NCBI GenBank assembly: GCA_026168455.1
Contig: CM047431.1
Location: 4,183,603-4,247,602 of the forward strand
DNA length: 64,000 bases
Reading direction: 5' to 3'
Origin: Theocolax elegans
Taxonomy: Eukaryota; Arthropoda; Insecta; Hymenoptera; Cerocephalidae
Under the pieces are notes generated by a model that worked only from the letters and a program-made list of their open reading frames with translations, made no database searches and was not told where the DNA came from. This document shows positions 5,801-47,749 of this stretch, one piece after another. Position numbers and translations under genes: made by a program. Each line of letters starts with the position of its first letter. The first letter of the stretch is position 1.

Positions 5801-5813
5801 GTACTGCGATTTA

Positions 5814-7284: not shown

Positions 7285-7319
7285 AGAGAGAGATAGATAG
7301 ATAGATAGATAGATAGATA
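7283..7319. repeat. (GA)n/(GATA)n tract at LINE junction
   Basis: A short (GA)n run followed by about six GATA units. It forms the 3' tail of LINE C (minus strand) and abuts the truncated 5' end of LINE B. Confidence 0.9.
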
Positions 7320-11756: not shown

Positions 11757-11757
11757 A

Positions 11758-12393: not shown

Positions 12394-12589
12394 AGAATCA
12401 TATAGAGTAGATTGGCTATAATTTAAACGTGTTGAGAGTCATAAAAGCTTGTCTAAATCCGAAGCAGTCACAATTAGCACACGATCAGACTTATCATCTT
12501 TACGAACAAAAATTTTCCCATAACGCGACCAAATATATTTATAGTTAAGTGGCTCAAGTTTGCTCTTAGTAAGCGCAATTCATGGATAG

Positions 12590-13210
12590 GGGCAGGCAAC
12601 ATTTCATACATGTTCAATACGTTATCAGAGAGCTCACCCGAATTTTCAACAAGTTGACAATATTTAATAACGCCAAATTTTTGCTTAGATTCTAATATAA
12701 AATTTCGAACATCTGCTGATTTAAATCTAATTATAAATATTTAGTGGGTAAAATCTGAGCCGATGAACTTGTAGCAGGAGCAAGATTTCCAGCAACTGGT
12801 GAAAAAGGGCGCACATCAAGAATATCAGAACATAAATGTTCAAGTTTAAGCAAAGATAAAATTCGCTTTGCAAAATCATTGACTGAAATTTGGCAAGCCA
12901 ATGGGACACCCGTGACTCTAAGTTGGGTATTAGATGACGTACTGGCATATAATTCCTTAAGTTTGCTAGATTTCAGTAGGTAACGCAAATTCTCATTCTT
13001 CAAAGCAAATATGCGATTATTAAATGTTTCAAAATTACTATCAAGTTTTTCAAGCTTTTCTTTAATAAGATTTGAATCGGCTTTAGAACTATTAAACAAA
13101 AAAGCTGTCTGCTGAGATTGAGATAAGGATTCCCAATTGCTTGGCAAATCCATATTTTCCAAGTAATTAATGGCAGAGGGACCAATAATTGAGCTATCAT
13201 GAGCATAATT
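12590..13210 (-). pseudogene. LINE ORF1 (RNA-binding protein), broken
   Basis: The open segment 13162-12731 carries an N-terminal 'MDLPSNWESLSQSQQTAFLF' motif shared with A1, a coiled-coil-like stretch, then 'LRVTGVPLACQI' and 'ILSLLKLEHLCSDILDVRPF'. Further codons to about 12590 continue in another frame. The gene ends just upstream of ORF2, the usual ORF1-ORF2 order. At least one frameshift is present. Confidence 0.65.
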
Positions 13211-13379
13211 AGATTTATTATTTAGGTCACGCCCAGCGACAAAAGTGGAATGGCGAGCAGTTATTGATAGAGAAGATGTGACATAACTATTAATATTACT
13301 TAAATACTGTGATCTTAATATAGGCTCACTTAAATTCCCGTTACAACATATGTCCGTAGACTTACTTTTTAAAAATTGT

Positions 13380-14543
13380 TTAACGCAACCTGGATGATGG
13401 ATATGTAATTATGGGTATAAACACTCCCTTGTATATTATATCTAGAGATTGATAGCCTAAGTCCCATTCCTCTCTTGCTAGGAAAGCCTGCTTTTCGAAA
13501 ATTCCTCTGGTTTTCTTTGAGGTCTCCGTAACATGCGTTTGTACGCTGAGGCCTTTGCCGAAAGAAACGCCCAGATATTTAAACGGTTCCTGCCTTTTGA
13601 TTCTTTGTCCGTTTATTCTGATTAGTGGGTAACATTTTTGATGGAAAGTTCCCTTCGCTAGTAACATTGCGCACTTATCTGGAGCATGTTTCATTTTGAC
13701 ATTTTCACTCCATTTTTCTATTATATTTATGACCATTTGTCCTTTTTTCCGTTCCAGTTCTTTACGGGATACTCCTTCGAATATAATAGCTTGGCCATCT
13801 GCATAGGCTATCGTCTCGTGTCCTTCTCTGTCTAACTTGTGAAACACTTCGTCAAATACGACATTCCATAGAATTGGTCCTACTAGAGATCCCTGCGGGC
13901 ATCCCTTTGTCACATTTTTGCTTGCAAAATTGCTACCTTCGGTTATAATAACTTTCCTATTACAGAGGTAATCCCGAATGATATTGTACAGTCTCCAGGG
14001 GTAGTTCAAGCCTCTCAAATTCTTAAGTACTCCCGGCCACCATACATTGTCAAATGCTCCTTTAATATCCAGAAACATTATGAGCACGTATCTACTGCTT
14101 GAGTTGTGTACTTTGGTCTTTAAGTACACTATCGCATCTTCGGTTGATATTCCTTTTCCAAAACCGTATTGTTTATCTGACAGACGTGGTTCCACAATTT
14201 GATCTAATTTTTTGATTATTAGACCTTCCAGAATTTTTCCTAAAACTGGTAGCAGGCATATTGGTCTGTATGAGCTAATTAGACTAGGATCTTTTTCTCT
14301 TCCCTTCTTGATTGTTATTACTTTGCCTGTTTTCCAAGTATTCGGAAATATACCGAGTTTTGGACAATTGTTGTGCAGCCTTAACAGTTCTTCACCAACT
14401 ACTGTAAGAGCAACTCTTATTATTTTCAGATCGAAACAGTCGATTCCTGGCGCTTTTCCTAGTTTCATTTTCCTTACTACTTGCACCATTTCCTGCCTTG
14501 TAAAACTTTCAGTTTCGCTGTATTCGTCTGTATTCTTAGCCAT
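13380..14543 (-). pseudogene. R1-type LINE reverse transcriptase with altered catalytic box
   Basis: 387 codons with the R1-clade RT order: 'KLGKAPGIDCFDLKI', 'SSYRPICLLPVLGKILE', 'QYGFGKGISTEDAI', 'MFLDIKGAFDNVWW', 'GCPQGSLVGPILWN', then 'AYADGQAIIFEG' where YADD is expected, and 'MKHAPDKCAMLLAKG'. The second catalytic Asp is Gly, so the enzyme should be inactive. The C-terminal thumb and zinc finger are missing because the sequence ends at 13380. R1-clade elements are often site-specific; the sequence around this one is not rDNA. Confidence 0.85.
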
Positions 14544-14785
14544 CGTCTGTCTTTACGTTACTTGCGATTTCATTGACTCTAATTTTTTTGGCAGCCAGTT
14601 TGTATGGTAAGCTCCTTGGATTGACATTTACTTGTTTCGTCACAAATTCTTCCCATTTTTTGGTTTTGGTTGTGTCTATTAGCCTTGTATATTGTCGCTT
14701 TGCCAATCGGTACGTCATTTTTGCGCGCTCTCTTATATCCGGATCTCTTTTCTTTTGAAATTGTCTGTTCAATTCCTCGTTCCAC
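14536..14785 (-). pseudogene. R1-type LINE endonuclease-RT linker
   Basis: A basic segment ('RERAKMTYRLAKRQYTRLI' and a region around 'WEEFVTKQ') in two alternating frames, joined to the start of the RT with a frameshift at about 14540-14580. It corresponds to the spacer between endonuclease and RT in R1-like ORF2 and has no catalytic residues. Confidence 0.6.
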
Positions 14786-15065
14786 TATGGAACTTTTCTA
14801 CTCGTCTTATTCTTAATGGGTATAGCTTTGTCACATGCTATTTTTATCCCATTTATTATGTCTTTAATGCCAGCGATTTTGAACCAATATTCTGTCGGTG
14901 CGGTTGGGCGTTCCAATTCTCTCTCAGTTTGTTAATAAACAATCCCCAGTCCGCTTTACTTGTTATATAGCTTTTGATGTACTCTTGCTTCCTGTATCTA
15001 CCTCCCTGATCTTGTTCCACTAATTCAAATGTTATTGCTCTATGGTCACTTGATGTCCAGTTTTC

Positions 15066-15298
15066 TTAGACTTTCCAATTTTGTATTCTTTGTGCCATAT
15101 CTGGTGAGGTTAGTGTTACATCTACGTATCCTTCTCCGACTTCATTTGCGACTGTTGCAATACTATTGGAATCGTTTATTACTCTGAGATTATTCTGGAG
15201 TATAAATTCTTCTAGTTTCTCTCCTTTTGAATCCGTTTTCATTGGGCCCATAGAGGATCTCTTGCGTTCAAATCAACACCAATTATAAAGCTCTTTCA
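15066..15298 (-). pseudogene. R1-type LINE endonuclease, C-terminal part
   Basis: Reads 'IIGVDLNARDPLWA' (about 15285-15245) and then, after a shifted frame, 'GEKLEEFILQNNLRVIND' and 'GEGYVDVTLTSPDMAQRIQNW', the catalytic Asn-containing block and the downstream strands of an R1 endonuclease. The coding match stops at about 15298. The preceding part of the domain is found at 19495-19870, showing that the domain was split by the Jockey-type insertion. Confidence 0.75.
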
Positions 15299-15463
15299 TT
15301 GTAAAGAGAGGAGTTCCTCTCGAACCTTTGTAGAGGAAACACTTATTCACATTATATAGAAAATTATTTCTATTGACTCTCGATTTATCGAATTCTCAAT
15401 AGCAGGTGCAAACCTGTCCCTATTTTCTATTATAATTCCTTTCTCAGCCCACTGTGAGCCATC

Positions 15464-16492
15464 ATGGCCACTGGGCAAAAATCCACATTTTCGCACTGCG
15501 ATGGCTCCGAGAGCATCGCCTCCACCGCTGAGTCCTTAATGGACACAGCCATTACTGTGGATTCCGAAGGCTTCAAGGAGCCTCGCAGGCGAAAACGTGC
15601 CCGCCAAACACCTCGGGACACTCAATCAGACCGAAAAAGTCTGATTACCAAGACTAGCCGGCACTTCCGCTGAAAATGAAAAGAAGGTTAAGATCACTCC
15701 AGTGAACGTTTACTGCGATGAGCTTAATTTTCCCTATAAACTCCTTCAAACCATTATTGAAAAATTAAAATTTAGCGCGGTAGTTTACAAACTCCACGAC
15801 AACTTCATGACCGTCCGGGTTTCAACCCTGGAGGACTATCGAACCCTCCTCCGGGAATTGGACACCGAAAGGTTCCAATATTTTCTTTTTAAATCTCCGG
15901 ATTCCGCACCTCCGGTCAAATTCGTGATTAGAGGCCTACCCATTTCAATGGCCACCGACGAAATCGCGGACGAATTACTGCGGGGTGGATATAGAGTCCA
16001 CAACGTCGCGCAAATGAAGAGAGGAAGCGGGAAAAATGCCACCCCGCTACCTCTTTTCCTAATTACATTAGAAAAAACCGACAACATTAAAAATATTACT
16101 CAGCTAAAAACGATCGCGTTTTTAAAAATTAAAATCGAACCATACAGAAAACCTAAACGCCCGGTACAATGCTTCAAGTACCAACGCTATAATCATGTGT
16201 CACGGTTCTGTCATACTCAACCCAAATGCGTTAAGTGTGGAGAGAATCATGACACCGCCGACTGCACTAAACCCGCGATAAAGAAAACCTAAAATGCGCA
16301 AACTGTGGAGGCAACCACACCGCGAATTACAAACGCTGTTCGGCCTATAAAATATCCAAACAATCCTACGCGAATAAAGCGAAAACTCCTAAACCCGCTA
16401 AAATCAACAACAATAATAATAATAAAAATACTCAAAAACCTAAACTCATTCCGTTAAACGATGGAAGTCATTTTCCCGCATTACCGGTTTAA
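15464..16492 (+). pseudogene. Jockey-type ORF1/gag with CCHC zinc knuckles
   Basis: Starts at ATG 15464 with a low-complexity N-terminus rich in basic residues, shifts frame at about 15680 and continues from 15702 through a region with 'KFVIRGLPISM', the pattern of the gag-like PRE_C2HC domain of Jockey ORF1. Zinc knuckles follow: 'CFKYQRYNHVSRFC' (first knuckle altered), 'CVKCGENHDTADC', and, after a second frameshift in an A run near 16288, 'CANCGGNHTANYKRC'. ORF1 proteins bind the element RNA. Two frameshifts make it a pseudogene. Confidence 0.8.
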
Positions 16493-16749
16493 CCTAAAAC
16501 CCAAACACCAATTAACATACCAATAATTAAATCATTACAAAACAAACACAAAAATGAAAATAACATTAATAAGAATAAAAAACCCGTCAACTCGGAAGAC
16601 GCAACCGCACTGATAGAAATACTGCGGGAGGCCACCAACCTCTCTATCAGTATCTCCTCCGGATCAATCTCAATAAACGACGCGTATATCCAAGTCGCGG
16701 TGATAACTCAAAAACTTCTAAACTCGGCTCTCGAGGTTGCATCCAATAA

Positions 16750-18928
16750 ACAAAAAACCGGACCAAAAATAATACACCAAATAAACAACTAACCATTTGT
16801 GCTTGGAACGCCAACGGACGACTAGCACACAAAAAACTCGAACTAGAGACGCTATTACACACAAAAAACATTGACATTTGCCTACTTGACGAAACACTTT
16901 TAAAAAACAACAGTACATTTAAACTACGAAACTACACTGTCTATAAAAATAACATAAACCGGGGCACCTCGGTAATAGTTAAAAACAGCCTAAAGCATTA
17001 TAATATACCCTTAAATACTGAAAACTTAGAAGCAACGGCAATTAAAATCAAAACCCGCCGAACCGACATCGCGATAATAGCTACTTATAACTCACCTACT
17101 GTTAAATTCAACAAAAACGACTACGATAAAATCTTTAAAACAGCCGACACAGTAATAGCCGCCGGTGACTTTAACGCTAAACATACGCGCTGGGGGAGTC
17201 GCACTATAAACGCTCTCGGTAGCCAACTCAGTAAATATTGCATTAATAAACAACTTTACATTCACACCCCAACGAGCTTCACTCACTATCCTTACAACAA
17301 AAAATGCAAACCCGATATAATAGATTTCATGATATCTAAAAACTTAAATTTTTCCTCTAATATCTGCACTCTCCCAGATTCCGAATTAGACTCAGACCAT
17401 TGCCCCGTATACATAACTATCAACTTAACAACAATTTACAATCCGACAAAAATCAACTACAACTTTGCAAAAACTAACTGGCAGACATTTAACAATTACT
17501 TTGACGAAAACATCACTACACTACAAGACATAGATAGGAAAGACGAAATCGACACAGTTATCACTGACTTTACACAAACCATCCACAAAGCAATAGACAT
17601 TTCCACACCATTAAATGAAAATAAAACCGGTAACCTTCAGTTACCGGACGAAATAATTAAATCAATGAAACATAGAAACGTATTAATCCGCGAAAACCGT
17701 AAACGATATAATCCAATACTTAAAAACCATATTAATTCAATTAGACGCTTAATAGACAACCAAATTAAAAACTTTAAATGCGAATTGTGGAATAACAAAG
17801 TGAAATCCCTAAACATTAAAGACAATAGTTTGTGGAGAATGACCAAAGCCTTTACGCGAACTCACACTAACATTCCACCGTTGAAAGATTCAAATAATCA
17901 ACTTAAATATTTTTCACCGGACGATAAAGCTAACCAGTTAGCCGAAAACTTCGCGAAAACGTTCACACCGCAAAAAAGACCGATTCCGTTCGAACTTAAA
18001 AAATATCTTAAAAGCACGAAAAACAATAAAGCACCCGGCCCGGATACAATAAGTAACTTCATTTTGAAAAAATTACCTATAAAAGCATTAACCCACTTAA
18101 CCGACATACTCAACGCGTGCATTAAACATAAATATTTCCCAGACGTCTGGAAAACGGCGACCGTCTTGGTGTTTCCCAAAGCAGGTAAAGACCCGACCCT
18201 CCCGACTAGCTACAGACCAATTAGCCTTCTTAACACAATGAGCAAGGCATTCGAGCACTTGCTCATCAATAGACTTCGGGACGACATGACTGACCGCCTA
18301 ACGATCAGACAGGAACAATTCGGGTTTAGACAGGCTCATTCTACACAACACCAAATACTTAGACTAACCGAAGACATTACTCGGAACTTTAACTGGAAAC
18401 GAAACACCGGGGCAGTACTTCTCGACGTCGAGAAAGCCTTCGACAGCGTCTGGATAAACGGTCTCCTTCGCAAACTAATCGATCGTAAACTCACCTACAC
18501 ACAACACACTACTAACGTTCGTAACAAAGCCATCGGGGTCTTAACTAAACTAAATCCGCTTTTAAGAAATCACTCGTCTCTAAACCTAAAAAACGGCATA
18601 ATAATGTATAAAGCCTTAATCCGACCAATACTAACATACGCCTCAGCGGTCTGGGGCGGTACGTGTAAAACAAACATTTATTAACTTCAAATAATTCAAA
18701 ATAAAAGTTTATGAAAAATAACAAACGCGATACGGTACACTAAAAATTCATTAATCCATAAAGAACTCGTAATAGAATATTTACATAATTTCATTAAAAC
18801 CTCGACCGAAAAATTTTACGAAAACTCCGCGAAATCAAAATACGCTCTAATAAACAACCTCGGTAAATACGAATTCGATCCTAAAAACAAACATGCGCGA
18901 CCAAAGGACTTTCTGTCCGCCCCGTAGG
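16750..18928 (+). pseudogene. Jockey-type ORF2: endonuclease plus RT with palm deletion
   Basis: The frame is open from about 16750 to a TAA at 18682-18684 without an obvious start ATG in its first part. Endonuclease blocks: 'CAWNANGRLAHKKLEL', 'VIAAGDFNAKHTRWGS' and 'ELDSDHCPVYI'. RT blocks: 'NNKAPGPDTISNFILKKLP', 'LPTSYRPISLLNTMSKAFE', 'QFGFRQAHSTQHQILRL' and 'AVLLDVEKAFDSVW'. Immediately after that the sequence jumps to the C-terminal 'YTQHTTNVRNKAIGVL', so the whole palm with the catalytic (Y/F)xDD box is deleted in frame. Weakly coding C-terminal sequence with stops continues to 18928. Inactive. Confidence 0.85.
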
Positions 18929-22738: not shown

Positions 22739-22948
22739 GAGGCCTGCGATGGCTCGGTCGGTAGGGCGTCGGGCTCGTAATCTAGAGGTCCCAGGTTCGA
22801 TTCCCGACCCCGGCCGATTGATACAAGCACCAATGGCGAATGTATTTTCAACAAGTGCTTTCTTTACCAAGACATCGTATGACCTCCATCGCTGATTAGC
22901 ACCGGTTTGGGAGCATAAAAAGAGCGACGTTAAAAAAATTAAAAAAAA
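22739..22948 (+). mobile_element. tRNA-Thr-derived SINE, complete copy
   Basis: A tRNA-like head with A and B boxes (GGTTCGATTCC), an anticodon loop CTCGTAA, a ~110-base unrelated body and an A-rich tail. The 12-base direct repeat ATATTCTTATAA flanks it at 22727-22738 and 22949-22960, a target duplication typical of LINE-mediated retroposition. It shares head and body with the truncated copy at 3640-3772. It landed inside the decayed viral protease gene. Confidence 0.85.
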
Positions 22949-23103
22949 ATATTCTTATAAAATAGTTTTAAATTTAATTGATCGTTGTATGAAGTATCGT
23001 CGGTGAACAGTCTCCAAAAACTGTCCATGCAATGACCGTGAGACATGTAATAAATGAAACGCAATACTGATCACACAGGATACAACATAAATCATGCAGG
23101 TGC

Positions 23104-23708
23104 TTAACCTATAGAGGGCTGGAAAACGCCTAGAGGCGTAAACATTTTTTTCATAAGTACTCAATTTTTTTCATTTAAATAACTCAATTCAGGTGTGAGG
23201 GTTAACGAAGTCTCCAAACATGATTCTGCAACCAAAAAAATTAAATTCAAAATGGGGGATGCAATATGGCTAAATTTCCAAGACATTTCTAGTTTCGATG
23301 TCAATCCAACTTGAAAATGATGAGTAGGAGTTTCAGAAGTCACTAGGTACAATTTTTCATTCAGAATGCTTATGTTTTTGGGGTCGCTGAATTCGAATTG
23401 AAGTCGGATTGACCTCATGACCTCAGGGTCAAGGTCATTTGAAGGTCAAATTTGCAAAATGTCTATTTCGTTTGAAAATTATGTTTAGCAATAATCCGAA
23501 AGAATGTTTGAGGGAAAAAATTAGTAAACATGCTCGCTCTCGGCTTTATCAAATGTTTTTAACGTTCATCTGAAATTTTGAAAATTTCAACATTTGGCCT
23601 TACCGTGCCGGATCGGAATACACCTATAGCGTAAGGGGTCTGACTCACCAACATCGAATAAAAATGCGATTTTCAAATTTTTCAAATCCCCGGCCCTCTG
23701 AAGGTTAA
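23104..23708. mobile_element. piggyBac-like MITE with TTAA target duplication
   Basis: The element 23108-23704 is bounded by TTAA on both sides (23104-23107 and 23705-23708). The inverted ends are CCTATAGAGGGC and, complemented, CCTTCAGAGGGC (10 of 12 matching). TTAA duplication is the piggyBac hallmark. There is no transposase inside. It separates the two halves of the protease pseudogene, which independently supports the boundaries. Confidence 0.65.
23410..23448. promoter_or_regulatory. Cluster of AGGTCA-type nuclear-receptor half-sites inside the MITE
   Basis: TGACCT at 23410-23415 and 23418-23423, AGGGTCA at 23425-23431, AGGTCA at 23432-23437 and AGGTCA at 23443-23448. The last two form a direct repeat spaced by five bases. 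This is a sequence match only, and binding is inference. Confidence 0.3.
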
Positions 23709-24119
23709 AGATTAGGTGTAAACCGTACAGTTTCTTCGGAGACATTCAATGTGTTGAGCTATAAAGGGTGGTCGACCGAAACTGTCGAAGAAGTAACCGA
23801 TTTCATGTTTATCGATGTATATGGCCAGCCAATGCAGAGGCCAGCCTCGCCAGAATCTAAAGAATCTTGTCCGCAGGGTATACTCTCACTATCTGCAGAT
23901 GCATGTGCACTATGTCGCATAAATTAGCGGCGTCGGTCGTATCCTGCGAAATAGTGGAAATACTTGTGTTTGTTGCACCTATAGGAGTTGAGTTAAATAA
24001 GTGACGGTCATCGGAGTGCTCTGACTTGATTTGGTTGGTGTTAGCGTTTTTTGTCGCGGTTTCGAAGACGGAGTTCCTTACCTTGAAGACGCGATGATTG
24101 TGTTACGCCTTTTTCAGAA

Positions 24120-24553
24120 ATGCGATAGGCTAATGTTTTATGCAGCCAAATATGTAATTTATATGGTTAAGTCAATGCACAACTCATGTATTCTCTTTCC
24201 GTCCATGTACAAGACAAAAGTGGTCGTTAACACGTGGAAGGTTTCTAAACGACGGGCCGTTGTACTCCTCAAAATTAGTTATTAGTCTTGCGAGATTTTC
24301 TAAAAATAACACTTTTGTATTCCTTCTCGTAGACTGTTGTACACATCGACACTGTTAAATTCATCTTCGACCATTTTATGCCACGCTAATAGTACGCTAA
24401 ATAACTGTTTGTAGCTACGATACCCATGGACAGTTCTGGGTAGTCGTATGATGCGTTAATCAGCTAGTGCGCTATGAAATTGCAATCTACACAGAAAAGA
24501 GCAATTTCATCTGGTAGGAAGAGGCCTTCCTTATCGTGAAACGCTTGAATATC
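24120..24553 (-). pseudogene. Unknown 'DIQ' protein of the decayed virus-like element
   Basis: Minus-strand codons from 24553 read 'DIQAFHDKEGLFLPDEIALF', then, with stops, 'SMGIVATNSYLAYY' and a 'GIKW' motif, and finally a C-terminal 'HFCLVHGRKE' segment in another frame near 24190. I recognise the pattern (an N-terminal DIQ motif, a G-I-x-W motif and a late C..H...C block) from uncharacterised proteins widespread in arthropod genomes, but I know no proven function. An RNase H-fold nuclease-like domain is a speculation from the spacing of Asp/His/Cys motifs. It follows the capsid-like fragment, as in the element at 25-34 kb. Several in-frame stops. Confidence 0.5.
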
Positions 24554-24935
24554 GATTATATAATTAAACTTGTCCATGCCGTTTGATGTTTGATTTCAAA
24601 AACTTTGTCAAACTCAGCATAAACGATACAATTAATTATTTTGTTCAATGCGCTTTGAAATTTAACTTCGATCCTGAGACATCCTGATTTTATTAAATTC
24701 CAATAAGAAAAACTATTTGCCGAAAAATCCGGTGTAACATCGAAAACCAATAGAACCATTAGGGTAATTCTCTTTACTGATAGAATTTCCTACGTAAAGA
24801 AAATGTTTACCAGTACCTGAGAACAATGTATGATATCCGTCAACGTACATTGGTCTTGTATTCGAAAACCTAAGTTGTGACCTAGGCTTTCGTCCACATG
24901 TCTCCGGGGTTGAGCGCTTGACGAAGAAGATTCAG
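24554..24935 (-). pseudogene. F54H12.2-like candidate capsid protein, C-terminal fragment
   Basis: The minus strand encodes 'YHTLFSGTG' (about 24830), 'VTPDFSANSFSYWNLIKSG', 'LRIEVKFQSAL' and 'INCIVYAEFD', residue for residue parallel to the end of the larger copy at 30539-30805. It has frame changes at about 24760 and 24880. The N-terminal two thirds are missing, and the sequence becomes AT-rich non-coding at about 24935, some 50 bases before the left end of the Polinton-like element. Same gene order as the other copy: capsid-like, then DIQ, then protease. Confidence 0.75.
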
Positions 24936-24983: not shown

Positions 24984-24989
24984 CATAAT
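24984..24989. repeat. Left 6-bp target-site duplication (CATAAT)
   Basis: CATAAT directly precedes the AG-starting terminus at 24990. The identical hexamer follows the CT-ending terminus at 34317-34322. Confidence 0.85.
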
Positions 24990-25166
24990 AGTAGTTAAAG
25001 GGTGGTATAGCGAGACGTAAACAAACCCCCACCACGCCTCCTTCGAGGTCTGCCGAAGGGCCGGTATAGCGCGCCGCGTCTATTTTTAGACTCTCTCTCT
25101 CTCTCTCTCGCACGCACATGCGCGTGGGCTCTCACTCTCTCTCTCTCGCACGCACATATGCGTGTG

Positions 25167-25204
<38 letters not shown>

Positions 25205-26260
25205 ACGATTTGCAATCGTACCTTCATGTAAAGCCCAGTGAGTGTACCACGGCTATAAATAGGCTTATGCAAGATGGATCTAGGATTGTAAATTGGGCTC
25301 TGATGTATAGTTTAGACTTGAACTACAGCAAAACTAAAGCTATGTTTATTGGTTCACCCCAACAGCTTAGGTTTATAAACTGCGATCATTTACCGCCCAT
25401 TATTATTGGTGGTCATAAGATTGATCTAGTCACTTCTACACGTAATCTAGGCATCATAATGAACGAAAACCTTCAATGGAATTCCCAAGTTTCGAATATT
25501 ATTACCCGTGTGCATGGTGTACTCCATAAGTTAAGAAATAAGGGAAACTTTCTCTCGTACACCTTCAGAAAGATGCTAGTCACGGCACTAATATTACCCC
25601 ATTTCGATTACGCTTCTATCGTCTATATTGATTTGCCTGATTACTTAAATGTTAAGCTTCAACGATTACTAAACACGTGTGTAAGATACATCTTTCGTCT
25701 CATAAAAGATGCTAGGTTGATGCCGTTTTATGCTAAACTTAATTGGTTATCTGTACATTCTAGACGCCAGTATTTTTTAGGTACTTTAGTATACCAGGTT
25801 CTCACTACCAAGAAACCCGACTATCTATTTGCCTTTCTACCCCCGTCAAACAGTGAACTTCGTCGCTCTGAGCGTACTAAAAATACATGCTTTGAGCGTC
25901 CCTTAACCAATACGTGTACCTATAAAAATTCTTTCTATCTAAGGGCTGGTATAGCGCAATGTACACAACGCCGATACTCCCACTCCTCGGCAACCTCTCT
26001 CTTTCTCTCTTGCGCTGTCTACGACTTCGGCGTGCATCTATGGGTTGGTATAGCGCAGCCCTCGGTTTTGGGGCTGGTATGGCGAGACGTAAACAAATCC
26101 CTCCCACGCCGTCTCCGTGGTGTTTGTGCGCAGGTACAATATGCAGAGACGTATCTATTATAGACAATGCATCGGTATACCGAAATGGTCTCTCTTCTGT
26201 ACAATCTGTTTCGGGTGCTTATAGTATGGTGTACCGTAATCCTTAGTTTTCGGGTAAGGT
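24990..26260. repeat. Left terminal inverted repeat, modular, with LINE piece inside
   Basis: The outer module 24990-25203 matches the complement of about 34100-34316 (GGTATAGCGAGACG, AAACAAACCCCC, GTCTATTTTTAGAC and CT runs). The inner module 25937-26200 matches the complement of 33480-33930 (CTGGTATAGCGC, CAACGCCGATACTCCCAC, GCGTGCATCTATGGGTTG). The order from outside to inside is the same in both arms. The left arm carries fewer copies of the inner module than the right. Confidence 0.75.
25204..25936 (+). pseudogene. LINE RT fragment E inside the left terminal repeat
   Basis: Plus-strand codons begin at the catalytic Asp-Asp ('DDLQSYLHVKPSE', with the preceding Y/F-x lost at the (CT)n junction) and proceed through 'YSKTKAMFIGS', 'RVHGVLHKLRN', 'LILPHFDYASIVYIDLPDYL' and 'LNWLSVHSRRQYFLGTLVYQ' to 'FERPLTNTCTYKNSFYL', where it stops abruptly against the inner repeat module. 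No internal stop occurs over ~240 codons. Same family as LINE fragment D. Neither LINE end is present, and no target duplication was identified. Confidence 0.85.
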
Positions 26261-26276
26261 ATATAGAGACACTACA

Positions 26277-26277
<1 letters not shown>

Positions 26278-26313
<36 letters not shown>
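26278..26313. repeat. (TA)n microsatellite
   Basis: About 34 bases of alternating TA just inside the left terminal repeat. Confidence 0.9.
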
Positions 26314-26315
<2 letters not shown>

Positions 26316-28970
26316 GACGTTGCACTTTTGATTCTTAACGAGTCGTTCCCGTAGTGCAACGTGTCACTGTGGCTTACAACAAATAAATATTAATAACTAA
26401 TTAATAATTATTATCCGGTTGTAACGTGGTCCTCACTTGTGTGGCCCGTAAACCACGCTACTCGATTCCACTTTATTTAATATATATATATTACCCTTTT
26501 AATCCGGTAAAGAACGTATTTAATATTTTACTGGGCGCCAGGTCTTACCAAACAATAAATAGCCTCCCGGTTCGACTCCTCAGGACGTGGCTCCAACGCC
26601 AATACGGAGGTGGCGAAACCAACGATGAATTTATCTCCTTCGAAAATGCGTGGCGGTAAATTATCAAGGTATAGGTCAATAAGTCAAAAATAACTCAATG
26701 CTTCAATTGAACTAGATTATAATTTAATTTAGTTTATTCCTTCAAAATTCCAATTTCCGATCACTACGGGTGATCACCGTTACAATTTTTATCGACCAAG
26801 TAAATTCGACAAGTTAAATTTCCGCGAACTAGCCTGATCTTCCGATCACCGATAACCACGTAGTGTTGATTAATTAACCCGATATTCACGTCTTATAAGC
26901 TCCGGTAATAAATAATAAACCGTTTCCCAACCCTTAAAACGGACAAACTCGAATTCGCGGCACGTGCTAAAATGGCGGCGCGGCTTGCAGGAGGTCTATA
27001 CGCGACGCGCAAGAAATCCCCGGCGATTCTTTCGATCAATAAATTAATTGATGGCCGTGCAGCCCACTTACCGCAACGAAAAGCAATCTTCTTCAAAGTA
27101 AAACAACTCAACTGTATAAAAACGATAACTACTAATTCTACTTTCAATTAACTTCTCCGACTCAGATATTCCAACTTAAGGTTGCGCACGGTGTACTATC
27201 AATTAGACTATCCGGCTACGAATGACGATCGGGACTCGTAGCATCCCGCTCGTCCTCGTAGTTCGTTAAAACGCGGCGCTGATTGTCTTCTTCTTCCTTA
27301 TTTTTCAACCAATAGTATCCTCCAGGTTAATTAGATGATTGACTATTACCGCCGTCCGCGCCATCAATTCCCGTACCAATCTTCTTTTCCCCAGTGACGG
27401 AATAACGAAATAACCCGTATTCCGTTGAGGAACTGACTTGCGCCTCCACCAATGCAACAGGTGTGTCTTCTTTCTCTCTCGTACACACACGCTGTAGATG
27501 GCTACTTCCCGCTCATTCCGTCGTTCCTCTCCTCGGTGCGCCGCCATGTGCCGCGGCGTGCATGTGCGAGAGCAGCGAGCGCCGCCCCCCCCCTCTTTGC
27601 CGCGCTGACCCTAGTACACGAGCAGCCGGCCGAGTCCGTTGCACGCGAGTCGGGCGTCGTTTGTTTACACGACGGCGAACGAGTTTTTATTTTGTGTGTG
27701 TGAAGAGTGCGCCAGTTCCTGGGTCGTCGTCTTCGTGGCTGCCTTCGTTCTCCATCACCAGGTCGTCGGGAGATGGTATTGGATCTACGTGGGAACATGG
27801 TTGGACGTCTGTGGCGGTATGGTTGTATCATTCCTTCTTCGTTATTAAACTCCTTCCTTTCTCCAATCCTCCGATTTCCTCAACAGATCAATAAAACCCT
27901 ATTAATTCCTTCCCTTTACGTACTAAAATATCGGTGACGAGAATGGCTCGGGCCAGGATTCGTAGCCGGTGTTTACTTCCTTCCTAACCTCTATTCCCAT
28001 ATCCTATATATAATATACTATACTCATACATAACTTCCTTATTACAACTACACTTTATCCCTCTATAAATCCTACTATCCTAACCTTCTATATATATTCT
28101 AGTTTTATTTATTATCAACCTTTCAGCTAACCAACACTACCAAGGAGCGGACCCAGGACCAAAAGGTTCACCCAGGACTCATCGCTTCAAGGGGAGATGG
28201 AATCACTATGAGCAGTACCCAGGACTCATCGCCTCCAAGGACAGGACTCACAGGGATAGCATCATTGGATCACCCAGGACTCATCGTCTCAAAGGTATAA
28301 TATTGTATTATAATCTTATTTAACTTATATCTATTTCTTCTACGGCTTCCCTTCTTTAGCTAATTATAAATAAATACCGGTGTGAGGTTTACCTCACACG
28401 GTAACGATTTTAATTAATTGGGCGCCAGTTACCGGTAAAACTATCATCAAGCCGATTCAGGGTCGCGGGCTCCACGTTGCCATCACGGGAAAGATGGCGG
28501 AACCACGTTGTAGGAAATTGGATAATTTACTCGGGTTATCAATCAATGAAATCAATCTCTTCGATTCAACACAATAATTATTAACACTTTAATTATTACT
28601 AATTTTATTTACAGTAATTATAACGCATTCAGAAATTCCGCTGATCGATTGTTCGATGTTTTATATATGAGCTATAACGCGCGAGTCAGTAATTCGACGC
28701 GAAATATTAAAGATCTCCGCGCGGCTATTCTAATTCACAATATTCACGAAACGTCCTATTCTCGCACTCTCATACCTTAAAATACGCCGTACTTCCTCAC
28801 TCACCGCAATTCGAGAGCTCTCCTTTTTACGGATTAACTATCTCTTCCTTGAATAATCAACCTTAGGTTTCGGGTGTCTCTCGCTCCGACTGATCGTTCA
28901 ACAACAATTAAATCGCCTCAATACTTTAACTTTCCTTAAATCTCAGCGCTTCATTTCAAACGCGTGCGCT
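26314..28970. other. Non-coding interior of the Polinton-like element with LTR-like repeats
   Basis: No credible protein gene. TGGGCGCCAG occurs at about 26531 and again at about 28421, each followed by a diverged GGCTCCA...GGCG(A/G)AACCA segment, so two related sequences lie ~1.9 kb apart as direct repeats, reminiscent of LTR/primer-site regions. A hairpin (GTGACGTTGCAC...GTGCAACGTGTCAC) lies at about 26322-26370 and a perfect palindrome GTGTGAGGTTTACCTCACAC at about 28381. Three copies of CCCAGGACTCATCG occur at 28171, 28218 and 28273. A CpG-rich stretch (27500-27720) has open frames in several phases, which I regard as chance. Confidence 0.45.
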
Positions 28971-28981
28971 AAGTACATAAT

Positions 28982-29491
28982 ATGAGTCATTACATTCAGT
29001 ACTACGGAGAGCAGGCTGGTGGCGGTTCTAGAGGTGCAAAAAACGTATACTCGGGTTCAACGTATCAAAAGGGTTGTGGAATCGGAAGTTTTCTCGGTTT
29101 GATATTTAGAAAAATTGTTCCTTATCTCACTAGCGGTGTCAAGACTGTAGGAAAGGAGGCTGTTCGCGCTGGATTGCACGTACTCGATGACGTTACAAAC
29201 AGTGGTGCTAATTTAAAAGAATCTTTGAATGTACGAGCTCGAGAGTCTGGAGAAAATTTGAAAAGAAAAGCAGTAACAAAAATTTCGGAAATGATGCAAG
29301 GTGATGGATATAAAGTGATCGGTGCCAAGCGTAGACGCCAGTCAAAAAGAAAACGCGGACCAATGCGGGTCACTACAACAAAAATTCGCAAAAGAAAAAC
29401 AGTTTCAAGAAAAAATAAAAAGAAGGGTAAGAGCACAAAGAGAAAGAAAACAACCGGTAGAAGTGTAGCAGATATTTTTGGACCTAAGTAA
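28982..29491 (+). CDS. Basic core-like virion protein (adenovirus pX-like pattern)
   Basis: 169 codons, ATG 28982 to TAA, intact. The N-terminus is Gly/Ser/Tyr-rich. Residues ~35-52 form a hydrophobic patch 'GSFLGLIFRKIVPYLTSG' followed by an amphipathic stretch ('GKEAVRAGLHVLDDV') and 'KESLNVRARESGENLKRKA'. Residues from about 115 onwards are strongly basic (runs of K/R). A hydrophobic segment plus a basic tail is the layout of core/minor virion proteins encoded by adintovirus- and Polinton-like elements, which bind packaged DNA. It is the first gene of the block, 16 bases upstream of the capsid-like gene. The family assignment is by pattern, not by alignment. Confidence 0.65.
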   Translation: MSHYIQYYGEQAGGGSRGAKNVYSGSTYQKGCGIGSFLGLIFRKIVPYLTSGVKTVGKEAVRAGLHVLDDVTNSGANLKESLNVRARESGENLKRKAVTKISEMMQGDGYKVIGAKRRRQSKRKRGPMRVTTTKIRKRKTVSRKNKKKGKSTKRKKTTGRSVADIFGPK

Positions 29492-29507
29492 TTAGTAGTT
29501 TTTTAAA

Positions 29508-30805
29508 ATGGCGTATTTGCACGCCTGCAGCGGCGAAGGGGTGAAGAGTGAACTCGATCTCTTTTCCGTACCTCTCACACAGACATCGATCGAGACTAGT
29601 GCATATCATTACTACAAACCTGTTTCGTCTCTTAGCGATGAAACCGATTCACCTTTAGAATTTTTAATCCCAAGCTCTACGGAACATTACATTGATCTGG
29701 CTCACACCATGCTACACGTAAGTGTTCAAGTATCACCGGTAGCCGATGATACGAAAAATGCAAAAGTCGCACCAATCAATAATTTTATTCATTCGATGTT
29801 TGATCAGATCGACATATTGTTCAATCAAAAATTAGTTTCTCCACCAAACAACGCTTATCCTTATTGGGCCTACATAGAAACATTATTAAATTATGCACCT
29901 CCCGCTATACAATCTTATCTGACCGCTGCGCTATTTTATCCGGATACAGCCGGTAACATGGATCCACCACCAAATATGGCTCGCAATGCCACTGGAGCAA
30001 ATATCGGTCTAATAAATCGTCAATACTTTCCTTTAGGTGGAAAAACAGTCGACATGATTGGTCATTTGCATTGCGATATTTTCAATCAATCAAAGTTTCT
30101 TCTCAACGGTGTAGAAATGAGAGTAAGACTTGTACGTAGTAAAGATGCATTCTGTCTCATCGATTTTTCCTCATATGGACAATTTTCAGTACGTATTAAA
30201 GAGGCAACGCTTATTGTACGGAGAGCTAAAATAAGTCCTGGTATATTACTAGCTCACGCAAAGGTATTAGCAAAAACAACAGCCAAATATTCCATTACCA
30301 GAGTCGAAATAAAGTCGTTTACTATGCATAGTGGAATTCTTGGAGATACCCTCGATAACGTTATTTTAGGTCAATTACCGAAAAGAGTCATTCTTGGTTT
30401 TGTTCTAAATCGAGCATTTAACGGTAACCGGCAACTCAATCCTTTCCATTTCAAACATTTTTCAATAAACTTTCTCTTATTGTACGTAGACAAGTACCGA
30501 GCAAACCACTACAACCAAGGTTCACAGGTACAAGTACTTTGTCTATAGATGCATTTCATACACTATTTTCTGGCACTGGCATACATTACCTAAACGAGGG
30601 TATCGATATCAGCCGTTCCACTTACCCTCTTGGATATTCATTATTCGCATTCAATCTTACCCCCGACATGTCGGCGCATTTTTCATCTCATTGGAGTCTT
30701 GTACGATCAGGTGCCTTGCGCATTGAAGTTCGATTCGAGCAAGCTTTAACGGAAACCATTAGTTGTATCGTTTACGCAGAGTTTGACAACATTCTAGAAA
30801 TAGAT
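29508..30805 (+). pseudogene. F54H12.2-like protein, candidate major capsid protein, one frameshift
   Basis: The first frame runs from ATG 29508 to a stop at 30548 (346 codons); the second runs from upstream of 30539 to about 30805. Similarity passes from the first to the second frame at about 30490-30500, so a single-base indel explains the break. Landmarks: 'FLIPSSTEHYIDLAHTMLHV', 'IDILFNQKLVSPPNNAYPY', 'DMIGHLHCDIFNQSKFLLNG', 'GILGDTLDNVILGQLPKRVI', then in the second frame 'FHTLFSGTG', 'LTPDMSAHFSSHWSLVRSG' and 'ISCIVYAEFD'. I recognise this as the family labelled F54H12.2-like in animal genomes. A capsid role is inferred from its position between a core-like protein and a maturation protease. 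Confidence 0.75.
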
Positions 30806-31343
30806 TCCAACAACAATGGGATACCATGGTTTGATGGTGATATTACATTACGTAAATTACATGTGTATTTTTATGGTATCGCGAGAAACGCATCAAAAAT
30901 ATACGTGAAAGGAAGTGAAAAAGCTCTATATCTTGAATCTCTGTTGGCTCGAAGAATTGTTAATATTGACGATTATACCAAGGAAAGTTTCAGCGATTTA
31001 CATAAAGCGTTCGATTAAACACAAATGCATTCTACACGCAAGTATGCAAGACAAGTATAAAACGTCGCAGTGCGCTTTGCAGAGAGCATACTTATTAAAG
31101 GTATGGCTTTATTCACAACTGTCGGAGCAAGATCGTAAATTTTTTCCTCAAAATAGTTCTGAAACAATTTACGATAGTCTGCAAAAACGCTTATGGGGAG
31201 ATACTAGAGATAGTGATACAGATTCTACAGCTCCAATCTCTGACGACGACGATAGTGCAAGTGTCGATAATTATATTCTTGATAGTGAGAAATCCCTTAA
31301 AGAAAATATACAATCAAGATTGCGAGAGCTCTGGAGGGTATAG
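30806..31343 (+). pseudogene. C-terminal remnant of the 'DIQ' protein fused to the capsid-like gene
   Basis: Directly after 'EFDNILEID' of the capsid-like frame the sequence reads on, without a stop, into 'NNNGIPWFDGDITLRKL' and 'SKIYVKGSEKALYL', which belong to the DIQ family (compare the separate gene at 24120-24553). The N-terminal DIQ half is therefore missing, and an in-frame deletion has fused two genes. A frameshift at about 31010-31025 (stop TAA at 31016-31018) moves the match to another frame ('CILHASMQDKYKTSQCALQ'), which continues as an acidic Ser/Asp-rich tail to 31343. Function unknown. Confidence 0.55.
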
Positions 31344-31846
31344 AAGCTACAACAATCGAAGTCTACGCAGCGGATCGGATTCTACGTGCAATGCCAACCC
31401 CAATAGCAATAACGTGTAATGTGGATGAACATACAAAACCAGGGACGCACTGGATAGCAATTTACGTAAATAAAGACAAATTTGGGTCGTATTTCGATAG
31501 TTATGGTTTCCCACCGTTGTCTCACCATCATTTAGAACGTCTTCGACGTAACTGTGAAAGATTCGAATATAATACTAAGAAACTTCAAAGCGCTGATTCA
31601 ACGTGCTGTGGTCAATACTGTATAATGTTTTTACATCATATGTGTCAAGGTGGAGATCTCAACACATTTTCTCAATTATTCACACAAAATACTATAAAAA
31701 ATGATAATTTAGCTATTAATTTTTATAAAAAAATTTGTAAGAAACTGAAATATAAAAAATGTAAGAGAACGTTTGCGTTTGGTCATGAACTCTCACGTGG
31801 TTTAGGATATTGTAATCAATCATGTATTTCTAGAAAGATTATTTAA
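31301..31846 (+). CDS. Adenain-like cysteine protease (virion maturation type)
   Basis: 151 codons from ATG 31391. The frame is open back to 31301 with family-like codons ('LEGIEATTIEVYAADRILRA'), so the true start may be lost, spliced or reached by frameshift. Catalytic pattern of the adenovirus-type (C5) protease: His20 in 'GTHWIAIYV', Asp36 in 'YFDSYG', Gln66, and Cys73 in 'STCCGQYC' (numbered from ATG 31391). The length is somewhat short of the ~200 aa of adenoviral enzymes. The family cleaves virion precursor proteins during maturation. It lies after the capsid-like and DIQ genes, the same order as in the decayed copy at 22.6-24.9 kb. An AATAAA-like signal follows at about 31863. Confidence 0.85.
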   Translation, partial: RKYTIKIARALEGIEATTIEVYAADRILRAMPTPIAITCNVDEHTKPGTHWIAIYVNKDKFGSYFDSYGFPPLSHHHLERLRRNCERFEYNTKKLQSADSTCCGQYCIMFLHHMCQGGDLNTFSQLFTQNTIKNDNLAINFYKKICKKLKYKKCKRTFAFGHELSRGLGYCNQSCISRKII

Positions 31847-32288
31847 CATTAATGTAGTTTTAAAATAAATAATATAGTTGATGTGTAAACAGTTGTGTTT
31901 CTTTTCTAACATTCTAATCCTTTTCCCTTTTTTTTATTATTAGATTAATGACAAACGTTATTTATTTCTTATATGCAGAAGTGCATAATTTTTATTTTTC
32001 CTATTACATCTGATTTTCACAACCAAACAATCAGTGCAACATCTGTTAATGCGCATTCAATTTTATTTTTAGAATTCTATTTTATGTACTCCCCCACTAC
32101 GTTGATGTACTACGTTACATCTGGTTAAAGTAACTAATACCCGAAAGTGGTGGGACAATCATAAATACATGAGAAGGTGATTGTAGAACAGTCAGTTGAG
32201 CATAGACAGTCAATCTGTGAGTTTACCGAACGAAATAGTGTAGTATAACGTTTGTAAATTTCTAGTGTACAATTGAAGTAAAAAAAAA
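31847..32288. promoter_or_regulatory. Intergenic region between protease and 204-aa gene
   Basis: AT-rich, with no ORF. It contains AATAAA-like motifs just after the protease stop and a less AT-rich segment (32090-32280) that probably holds the promoter and leader of the downstream gene. No specific element can be assigned. Confidence 0.35.
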
Positions 32289-32903
32289 ATGGCTGACTGT
32301 CAATTAAGAAAACGTGAAGTGTATCCGGAGTTGCCTAATCTCTTATTAGCTACAACGTATGTTCTGAATAAATCAAACACAAAGAGGGTCTGCGTAGGAC
32401 TTGAGCAGAGAGGAGGATATTATCACTATGTTATCAAGTTAATTACCGCAGGACCGTCATACAAGAACCTTACGCTGGACGTAGAAAGTTGGGACAGTTT
32501 GAAACTACACTTTGATCTGATAACATCTTATTTCGATAACAATTATTCTTTTTATCGAGAGATTGGACGTCCAAGTAAGATTTTTCTCGAAAAGCACGAT
32601 TTAAGCTTTACATCGTCAGACGGTCATAGAACAATTATCATCGACGAGAGACCAGAGCCTAATCACGATATTATAGAAGGAAGTGATATTAAAACGCTAA
32701 TTGAAAATCCATCTTGTAAGAAGAAGAAGCTTCGTCATAATCCACCAGCTATAGTAATGCAACAATCAACGTTTGATGGACTTCGAAACCAGAGCGGTTT
32801 GATAGATTTGCATCTTGGATTACTCAAAGAAATAGTTGGTAAAGTTAATAGGACTGTCGATTGTACGCTCGAATTTTTAAAAGATAAACTTGGGAAGGAA
32901 TAA
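32289..32903 (+). CDS. Unassigned 204-aa protein, weak PC4-like pattern
   Basis: Intact from ATG 32289 (preceded by an A run, AAAAAAAAATGG) to TAA 32903. The N-terminal third contains 'KRVCVGLEQRGGYYHYVIKL' and 'NLTLDVESWDSLKLHF', which recall the strand-rich core and 'L...W..L' helix of PC4/p15-like single-stranded-DNA-binding coactivators. A basic 'KKKKLR' patch lies near residue 145 and a predicted helical C-terminus follows. I do not recognise the family firmly. The position after the protease in a Polinton-like element would fit a late DNA-binding or regulatory protein. There are no membrane segments or cysteine clusters. Confidence 0.5.
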   Translation: MADCQLRKREVYPELPNLLLATTYVLNKSNTKRVCVGLEQRGGYYHYVIKLITAGPSYKNLTLDVESWDSLKLHFDLITSYFDNNYSFYREIGRPSKIFLEKHDLSFTSSDGHRTIIIDERPEPNHDIIEGSDIKTLIENPSCKKKKLRHNPPAIVMQQSTFDGLRNQSGLIDLHLGLLKEIVGKVNRTVDCTLEFLKDKLGKE

Positions 32904-32939
32904 GGTGAAAATGCTAAAAGTATTTTACAAGACTTTAAA

Positions 32940-33122
32940 GTGTTTCAACAGTACTATTCAACCCAGTATGCTGACATAGATGGGTTTGTCAACGAGAAAA
33001 TGGTCGAAGATGATAACGATGGGTTTAAGTATATGTATTTACCAATTGTGTTGGGTGAAATTTACGCGTACGACTTACCCTTGATTTCAAAAGATCTACA
33101 TGCTATCATGTTCGAAGAATAG
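32940..33122 (+). CDS. Small acidic ORF, 60 aa
   Basis: Opens with TTG or an upstream codon (no clear ATG at 32940; the first ATG codons are internal, near 32999) and ends with TAG 33120-33122. Composition is acidic and Tyr-rich ('ADIDGFVNEKMVEDDNDGF'). It could be the continuation of the preceding gene through a spliced or shifted junction, or a remnant. No family recognised. Confidence 0.35.
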   Translation: MFQQYYSTQYADIDGFVNEKMVEDDNDGFKYMYLPIVLGEIYAYDLPLISKDLHAIMFEE

Positions 33123-33131
33123 TATAAATAC
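33123..33131 (+). promoter_or_regulatory. Candidate TATA box upstream of 52-aa ORF
   Basis: GTATAAATA, about 50 bases upstream of the ATG at 33180 and directly after the preceding stop codon. A match to the eukaryotic TATA consensus only. Confidence 0.35.
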
Positions 33132-33179
33132 AAATTACTTGAGTAAATCTACTCATTCTATTTCAATACTCACATCAAC

Positions 33180-33338
33180 ATGGGTCCAAATACCAGCAAT
33201 CCGGAGCACAAGCCTCTACTAGATAAGCAAGAAAAAAATAATGAAAACATATTCAAGTCTCAATGGAAAAAATACAGTGAAAAAGTTTCTATTAATACTT
33301 GTAGTATACCAAAAAAAGATGGTTATAAAAAAATGTAA
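33180..33338 (+). CDS. Small Lys/Asn-rich ORF, 52 aa
   Basis: ATG 33180 to TAA 33336-33338, intact. It starts 'MGPNTSNPEHKPLLDKQEK' and is rich in Lys, Asn and Ser with no hydrophobic segment. A plausible TATA box lies upstream and TAATAAATAAG lies at about 33360 downstream, so it has the marks of a short transcription unit. It is the last gene before the right terminal repeat. No family recognised. Confidence 0.45.
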   Translation: MGPNTSNPEHKPLLDKQEKNNENIFKSQWKKYSEKVSINTCSIPKKDGYKKM

Positions 33339-33469
33339 TTTTTATGAAAACTTTATACCTTAATAAATAAGTTATTAATATTTAATCAAAAGAGAGTATT
33401 GAATTATTTACACTTCCACTATAACCACATTACTTTTTTTCCTTCTTATATATACCTTTAACTAATTAA

Positions 33470-34150
33470 TAAGAGAGAGTACAGGTGTACCGATGCGTTG
33501 CCTAAAAAAAAGAGGGCTGCGCTATACCAACCCATAGATGCACGCCGGAGTAGTAGACAGCGCGAGAGAGAAAGAGAGAGGTTGCCGAGGAGTGGGAGTA
33601 TCGGCGTTGTGTACATCGCGCTATACCAGCCCTTAGATGCACGCCAGAGTCGTAGACAGCGCGAGAGAGAAAGAGAGAGGTTGCCGAGGAGTGGGAGTAT
33701 CGGCGTTGTGTACATCGCGCTATACCAGCCCTTAGATGCACGCCAGAGTCGTAGACAGCGCCAGAAAGAAAGAGAGAGGATGCCGAGGAGTGGGAGTATC
33801 GGCGTTGTGTACATCGCACTATGCCAGCCCTTAGATGCACGCCAGAGTCGTAGACAGCGCGAGAGAGAAAGAGAGAAGTTGCCGAGGAGTGAGAGTATCG
33901 GTGTTGTGTACATCGCGCTATACCAGTCCTTAGACGCTCAAGTGCTGGAACGTAGGCGCGAGAGAGAGAGAGAGAGAGAGTTTAAAAATAGACGCCGCGC
34001 GCTATACCGGCCCTTCGGCAGACCCCCTAGGGTGGCGTGGTGGGGGTTTGTTTACTACGCTATACCAGTCTTTAGACGCTCGAGTGTTCAAACGTGCATG
34101 TGCGTGCGAGAGAGAGAGAGAAAGAGAGAGCACACGCACATGTGCGTGCT

Positions 34151-34182
<32 letters not shown>

Positions 34183-34316
34183 CACACGCACATGTGCATG
34201 CGAGAGAGAGAGACAGAGAGAGTCTAAAAATAGACGCTATACCGGCCCTTCGGCAGACCTCGAGGGAGGCGTGGTGGGGGTTTGTTTACGTCTCGCTATA
34301 CCACCCTTTAACTACT
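33470..34316. repeat. Right terminal inverted repeat of the Polinton-like element
   Basis: Complement of the left repeat in module order. The inner part holds a 99-bp tandem array (33522-33917). The outer part has (GA)n runs broken by GCACACGCACATGTGCGTGC-like palindromes and ends ACCACCCTTTAACTACT. The outermost ~130 bases are nearly identical to the left end. Confidence 0.8.
33522..33917. repeat. 99-bp tandem array (4 units) in the right terminal repeat
   Basis: Units start at 33522, 33621, 33720 and 33819, with a fifth partial unit at 33918. Each begins CTATACCA(A/G)CCC and ends CGTTGTGTACATCGC. Because 99 is a multiple of three, open frames on both strands persist through the array and mimic repetitive proteins; they are not genes. 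Confidence 0.9.
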
Positions 34317-34322
34317 CATAAT
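34317..34322. repeat. Right 6-bp target-site duplication (CATAAT)
   Basis: Directly follows the CT terminus at 34316 and is identical to 24984-24989. Confidence 0.85.
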
Positions 34323-34872
34323 AAATGAGATATAGATATTTTTCATTTTAAAAAGAGAACGTATAAATATTTCAAATATTTCGCTGTATAAAAAGTAGTA
34401 TGTAATTAATTAATTTAAATTTTGTATAATACGCGATTTTCTTAACGAAAACTGAAAATAAATATTTCAAAAGAAAGGAAAAATGCCAGTTATAAATGTA
34501 AACTGATATTTGGGAAATATGTACCTTGTAGTTCGAAGATGTGTGCTCGGTGTCCTATTTTCCACAGCGGGGGGTCGGTCGGTGCTCCGTCCTCGTTATA
34601 TTGACTGGTCTTCCTGTGCAGTTACTCTTCAAGGCATTTAATGACCTCCTGCTGTGCTTCATTCGGTGCTGCTATTGCCTCTTGACTTAATTTCTTTCTC
34701 CTTCCACTTTTCATAAATTTTTTAATATAAGAATCTTGAAGTCGACTGGGGTGGATACGACGTCTATTAATAAAAACTGATTCGCCTCGTTTATGTAGAT
34801 GCGTCTCTTTATATACCCTCTCTCGTGGATTCTCCCTATTCTGCATTTTTCTTTGTCTTGTAATACTGACAA
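34323..34872. other. Unassigned AT-rich DNA; short minus-strand ORF
   Basis: A minus-strand open frame of 88 codons (34888-34622) is basic and Arg/Lys-rich with no recognised family, and its start lies inside the adjoining foldback element. Otherwise AT-rich. Confidence 0.3.
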
Positions 34873-42360: not shown

Positions 42361-42668
42361 GTCGAAAAAATCCAGATGGATTTCCAACTGGATTTCCAGG
42401 TGGATTTCGACCTGGATTCAGCTGGATTCCACCTGGATTAGACTGGATTTTGAGCCTCGATTTCCAGGTGGAATCCAGGTGGATTTTCAAGCTAGATTTC
42501 GAGGTGGATTGGCATGGATATCCAGGTGGATTCGCCTCGATTTCCAGTTCGATTTGCATGGATTACCAGGTGGATTGGCATGGATTTCCAGGTGGATTGG
42601 TATGGATATCCAGGTGGATTGGCATGGATTTCCAGGTGGATTGGCATGGATTTCCAGGTGGATATGGC
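42361..42668. repeat. Left subterminal 22-bp repeat array
   Basis: Units of the form GGATTGGCATGGATTTCCAGGT with variants, in inverted orientation to the right array. A second copy lies at about 44796-45104 because of the tandem duplication. Open frames crossing it are products of the repeat. Confidence 0.85.
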
Positions 42669-42759
42669 ATGGATTTGTGGGTCAATTGGTACATTTATTA
42701 GTGTGTAGTAAAGTTTAGTTTTCTTAGTTGATTTTGTTTATATATTAGTAAAAGGTCTT

Positions 42760-44791: not shown

Positions 44792-45194
44792 CCCTGTCGA
44801 AAAAATCCAGATGGATTTCCAACTGGATTTCCAGGTGGATTTCGACCTGGATTCAGCTGGATTCCACCTGGATTAGACTGGATTTTGAGCCTCGATTTCC
44901 AGGTGGAATCCAGGTGGATTTTCAAGCTAGATTTCGAGGTGGATTGGCATGGATATCCAGGTGGATTCGCCTCGATTTCCAGTTCGATTTGCATGGATTA
45001 CCAGGTGGATTGGCATGGATTTCCAGGTGGATTGGTATGGATATCCAGGTGGATTGGCATGGATTTCCAGGTGGATTGGCATGGATTTCCAGGTGGATAT
45101 GCATGGATTTGTGGGTCAATTGGTACATTTATTAGTGTGTAGTAAAGTTTAGTTTTCTTAGTTGATTTTGTTTATATATTAGTAAAAAGGTCTT

Positions 45195-47690: not shown

Positions 47691-47749
47691 AAATCAACTA
47701 AGAAAACTAAACTTTACTACACACTAATAAATGTGCCAATTGACCCACA

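Follow-up and report, generated by a model that had tools for sequence, protein, structure and literature searches.

Why would a mobile element with well-preserved ends carry genes for a virion but none for its own replication or integration? The question is raised by a 9.3-kb element in the hymenopteran Theocolax elegans, found in a stretch of 64,000 nucleotides (the window; C7:4183603-4247602). The original prediction, made from the window alone, took the element for a Polinton, or Maverick, a group reportedly described by Kapitonov and Jurka and by Pritham et al., and offered two explanations for the missing genes: a non-autonomous cassette of virion genes mobilised by a full element, or a distinct small virus-derived lineage. 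A search of the wasp's own genome (658 Mb, 1277 contigs) for relatives of the element points to a different answer, with a probability of about 0.88: the element was an adintovirus-type Polinton/Maverick of full length (adintoviruses are said to go back to Starrett et al. 2021), and it decayed after insertion at this locus.

Ends of the element

The element occupies 24990-34316 and has AG...CT ends; these can be read directly, as can the CATAAT on either side (Table 1). The sequence AGTAGTTAAAGGGTGG... begins at 24990, and its reverse complement finishes at 34316. Over 82 nt, the arms furthest out (24990-25071 and 34235-34316) show 99% complementarity, and the inner repeat modules pair in the predicted outside-to-inside order; one such pair is 25937-26069 and 33506-33638 (95%). 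The left repeat is split by what appears to be a fragment of a LINE; the ORF from which this was recognised has no Pfam match, and part of the fragment (25427-25673) has 70% identity to window positions 10168-10414.

Table 1. Features of the element and of its left flank, in window coordinates
Feature	Position	Strand	Basis
Decayed older relative in left flank: capsid C-terminus (24592-24877), protease pieces (23727-23834, 22948-23067)	22948..24877	-	tblastn
Left target-site duplication, CATAAT	24984..24989	.	Read directly
Left terminal inverted repeat, outer part (AGTAG...)	24990..25215	+	Complementary arm; recurs genome-wide
Putative LINE (non-LTR retrotransposon) reverse transcriptase fragment splitting left repeat	~25216..25936	+	By eye, from ORF 25162-26163
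Inner left repeat and left-end sequence, terminating in (AT)n tract	25937..26312	+	Sister matches
Retroelement X, first part (TGTGACG..., LTR-like)	26313..26419	+	Contiguous with second part in L029
Nested TG...CA insertion, 1,979 bp, 4-bp duplication CGGT, probably LTR-type	26420..28398	.	Absent from L029
Retroelement X, second part, ending at private junction with Polinton	28399..28948	+	L029 match, junction search
Core-like basic protein, 169 aa, frame open	28982..29491	+	Sister matches
F54H12.2-like double jelly-roll major capsid protein gene (predicted), broken	29508..30811	+	tblastn, fold of relative P0003
Truncated remainder of capsid-protease intervening gene (296-aa ORF in L023)	30816..31343	+	Sister comparison
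Adenain-like (C5) cysteine protease	31310..31846	+	59% identity to P0129
MOSUB/Pur-alpha-like nucleic-acid-binding protein gene, ~270 aa, in-frame stop	32289..33122	+	Relatives, fold matches
Right terminal inverted repeat, four 99-bp tandem units	33506..34316	-	Repeat comparison, sister copies
Right target-site duplication, CATAAT	34317..34322	.	Read directly

Are these the ends of a family, or of one chance arrangement? The first 86 bases of the terminus have 51 matches genome-wide (40 scored of 137 candidates), a recurrence far beyond chance, and the boundaries in the window are those of a family. Among 20 stretches of about 10 kb taken at terminus matches (L009-L028, one terminus counted per stretch), AGTAG stands at the identical first base in 19; the alignment of the remaining one (L028) starts at base 3, the start being altered. 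The predicted boundaries stand, since these copies do not end elsewhere. Both of the other copies that were read at both ends have exact 6-bp duplications: C7:8014203-8036067 (CGCGTA, spanning 21.9 kb) and C7:1342756-1373141 (TATATT, spanning 30.4 kb; this duplication is AT-rich, and the left end is altered). The length of the full element is uncertain, because the sisters are themselves decaying and interrupted.

A 2.6-kb candidate with two facing termini, C1:62457696-62460307 (L030, C1:62457500-62460500), was considered as a mobile short derivative, or "mini-element", and rejected. No direct duplication borders it, and its flanks, too, are inverted copies; it is therefore a local palindrome rather than an insertion, arising from either an inverted duplication or a fold-back in the assembly. 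Elsewhere, a Mutator-like transposase ORF (L018, 1343-3286; PF20700, E 2.8e-75) lies less than 3 kb from a Polinton terminus.

Virion genes of the window copy

The core-like protein, F54H12.2-like capsid and adenain-like protease of the original prediction are all present in the element; the break in the capsid frame, the stop behind the short last ORF and the decayed relative in the left flank had escaped it. The core-like protein has no stop in frame and no Pfam match, and is 95-98% identical to five full-length sister matches (86-98% across all matches). The capsid gene has 76% identity to a complete Nasonia relative, P0003, over residues 1-329, beyond which the frame is different; the frame is broken in the last third, and the C-terminus has been removed by a small deletion. 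When modelled, P0003 has a double jelly-roll (DJR) capsid fold, and by this model the F54H12.2-like gene of the window is assigned to the double jelly-roll type. A sequence search with the capsid alignment against solved structures gave nothing beyond one chance match (E 0.43), and the relationship to these structures is therefore visible from fold comparison only. Among named homologues of the capsid, those of the chalcid wasps Nasonia and Trichomalopsis are the nearest. Three scans of viral contigs, with the capsid sequence, the capsid alignment and the MOSUB alignment, found no relatives, and no mention of F54H12.2 was found in the limited collection of literature searched.

The protease region is stop-free across residues 3-177 of its relative P0129 and has no start codon at the relatives' start site. 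It scores 19.1 bits against PF00770, just below the cut-off of 21.3, which five of the eight relatives scanned (21 were found) exceed; on these similarities the window protease is placed with the adenovirus-type C5 proteases. The last gene appears as an ORF of ~204 aa, the first part of a ~270-aa MOSUB gene interrupted by a stop. In a fold search of BFVD it scored best against two adintovirus MOSUB proteins (E 1.8e-7 and 2.3e-4), so that a MOSUB/Pur-alpha-like gene gains a fold-based annotation where Pfam gave none.

Sister copies hold the missing genes

The core-capsid-protease-MOSUB block is shared by the sister copies. Seven of these (L009, L017, L021, L023, L024, L025 and L027) match 28949-30811 fully, with 96.6-97.6% identity. 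Three of the seven full-length sister capsid matches have frames uninterrupted over residues 1-447, and the other four have stops at positions that differ by copy.

The sisters also hold what the window copy lacks. Three consecutive PolB pieces are found in L013 (PF03175; E 4.5e-16, 6.5e-15 and 4.8e-6), preceded by a stretch that looks OTU-like by eye and has no Pfam match, and two weaker pieces, below the cut-off, in L028. An rve integrase is found in L010, L021 and L023 (PF00665, 58.6-61.1 bits; cut-off 32.6), and in L023 (2005-3114) it has a C-terminal Chromo domain (28.0 bits; cut-off 25.1). Another ORF in L023 resembles Pox_A32 at a level under the cut-off (E 0.0013, 18.7 bits; cut-off 22.8) and is probably the packaging ATPase. 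The order in L023 is ATPase-like ORF, 286-aa ORF, integrase, 276-aa ORF, core, capsid, 296-aa ORF, protease, MOSUB and terminus, while PolB sits in the opposite end of the sister elements (L013, L028); in C7:8014203-8036067, PolB lies in the stretch from one end (L013), and the stretch from the other (L012) holds the virion block. The 276-aa ORF upstream of the core gene is by eye a candidate penton (single jelly-roll) and has no Pfam match; its counterpart is deleted in the window copy. The predicted Polinton/Maverick identity is thus borne out by the terminus family, the 6-bp duplications and the gene content of the sisters. With its well-preserved ends and several uninterrupted genes, this fuller sister family is a more interesting subject than the window copy itself. 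(Partial duplications of capsid or protease genes inside single stretches, seen in L019, L020, L021 and L025, suggest local rearrangement.)

Foreign DNA in place of the replication half

What lies where these genes should be? From 25937 to about 26287, the left end has 90-96% identity with L013, L015, L018 and L028, and 88% with L011. Homology to the sisters then ends (at 26312 in the junction search) and picks up again at 28949. Between 26313 and 28948 there is no DNA match in the 20 sister stretches, and a Pfam scan of 26.2-29.0 kb (10 of the 17 stop-to-stop frames that reach 60 aa) found no PolB, integrase or ATPase domain, as predicted. The gap is filled by 2.6 kb of LTR-retroelement-like DNA. 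At a locus on contig C554 (L029), sequence matching window positions 26313-26419 (95%) is joined directly to sequence matching 28399-28960 (82%); since L029 is contiguous across the site, the intervening 1,979 bp in the window are a nested insertion. The surrounding element, X, starts with TGTGAC within the AT tract of the Polinton left end and has further X-side matches elsewhere in the genome; at its other side its last bases before Polinton sequence are CAGCG, which is no LTR end. Judged by its TG start and its copy number rather than by any coding sequence, X would be of the LTR type. The foreign segment is thus explained, because two nested LTR-like pieces account for it. Both pieces carry a GGGCGCCAG motif.

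When was the replication half lost?

If the deletion had been carried by a mobile form, its junctions could be expected in other copies. Three junctions were searched for in the genome, with 40 candidates scored for each, a sample in which a weak copy sharing a junction could be missed. For the junction between X and the core side (query 28860-29060; 40 scored of 242 candidates), one of 40 matches spans it, and this is the window itself; 38 cover the Polinton side only and one the X side only. For the entry of X into the left end (26312|26313; query 26120-26420; 40 scored of 312), the window is again the only one of 44 matches to span, the rest covering one side or the AT tract. The third is a small deletion (30811|30816) that takes the end of the capsid gene and the start of the next one; only the window spans it among 40 matches (query 30720-30910; 40 scored of 152), and it is absent from all ten fetched loci that have both sides, where 383-387 bases separate the two halves. 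The replication half was lost through a deletion that is absent from the other copies compared. Likewise, the position of the MOSUB stop is common to none of the four fetched copies that bear a stop in that gene.

Decay after full insertion is favoured because the three junctions are private among the candidates scored and the MOSUB stop is private as well. The element, perhaps 15-20 kb long, would have integrated at CATAAT and duplicated the site, presumably through the integrase mechanism of its family. Retroelement X would then have inserted into the left-end AT tract, and a deletion that began within X and ended shortly before the core gene would have removed PolB, ATPase, integrase and neighbouring genes. 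Further events would include the second LTR-type insertion, the small deletion across the capsid gene and the next one, the LINE fragment in the left repeat, the break in the capsid frame and the stop in the last (MOSUB) gene. The order given here is the presumed one, in which both the deletion and the death of the copy would follow insertion. What is left would be a dead block of virion genes between good terminal repeats. The integrase of a sister could in principle still act on these ends; nothing indicates that this has happened.

The first proposal of the original prediction, that a deleted form was mobilised in trans by full sisters and landed here as a non-autonomous virion-gene cassette, is unlikely. 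The intact ends and exact duplication are in its favour, and the genome does hold relatives with PolB and integrase able to act in trans. However, none of the three junctions turned up in a second copy when 40 candidates were scored per junction, the capsid and MOSUB genes are broken (the latter by its private stop), and the gap is filled by foreign retroelement DNA. A loss of the replication half before insertion, with a full sister supplying replication, packaging or integration in trans, is given a slightly smaller chance; if true, the copy would be a defective, satellite-like Polinton of an insect.

Could the host have kept the block, or the core or protease gene within it, for its own use? 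Domestication would fit the open core frame and the stop-free protease region, but it is very improbable: the capsid and MOSUB genes are broken, the protease lacks the start of its relatives, and stop-free frames are frequent in the sisters (four of five full-length core matches, nine of 13 protease matches), so that selection at the window locus is not needed to explain them. The second proposal of the original prediction, a small lineage that never had PolB, integrase or ATPase, would fit the window copy taken by itself, which lacks these genes, but it is scarcely credible: the junctions are private among the candidates scored, the close sisters L021 and L023 (97.3 and 97.6% identity over ~1.87 kb) both carry integrase, and C7:8014203-8036067, with the same two ends, holds both PolB and the virion block.

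As the product of decay after insertion, the window copy is most likely ordinary genomic debris and not a new compact virus. Missing genes can look like a biological feature when seen from one locus, where sister copies reveal a loss, and a compact "virion-gene cassette" can come from accidental decay rather than from a lineage.

Relation to known elements

Polintons/Mavericks usually measure 15-20 kb and carry DJR capsid genes, according to the available part of one account (PMC4028283). The window copy shares with them the 6-bp target duplication, the AG...CT inverted ends, the DJR capsid and the C5-type protease; it differs in that PolB, integrase and the probable ATPase, all present in sister copies, have been lost, and in its broken capsid gene. 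It is a Polinton/Maverick by descent, and not a complete element.

Adintoviruses are defined, in the portion of the source available (PMC11071296), by an rve integrase with a C-terminal chromodomain, a PolB with an N-terminal OTU-like domain and a hexon recognisable by BLASTP; a MOSUB-type protein is not part of the definition given there. The integrase of L023 likewise has a C-terminal chromodomain, whereas no integrase gene was found in the window copy, and the viral models nearest in fold to the last gene are the MOSUB of two adintoviruses. The likeness is drawn from this sister chromodomain and this fold, rather than from comparison with a reference capsid or PolB. Unlike adintoviruses, the present family is known from genomic copies, with no sign of a free virus. 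Mavericks are also an important component of the genomes of N. vitripennis and braconids, as described in the available part of a study whose phylogeny used integrase (PMC6035795); the window locus, which has no integrase, is linked to these wasp elements by its closest named capsid homologues.

Surroundings of the element

About 107 bp from the left duplication of the element lies a second, older relative, which is more diverged and has the same gene order. Its capsid pieces match in tblastn with E values down to 4e-26 and its protease pieces with 1e-10 and 4e-6. The right flank has no significant capsid or protease match for this older relative (E ~3 for the best capsid match). The MOSUB relative P0125 matches weakly at 34471-34596, minus strand (E 0.027), perhaps by chance. 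The window is rich in retroelements, with LINE-type and Gypsy-type ORFs recognised by eye at 4006-18684 and 52642-58114. It also contains a 22-bp minisatellite (consensus AAATCCATGCCAATCCACCTGG) in three arrays and in both orientations, at 42495-42676, 44930-45110 and 47749-49095, the last of which is the largest, with ~61 copies.
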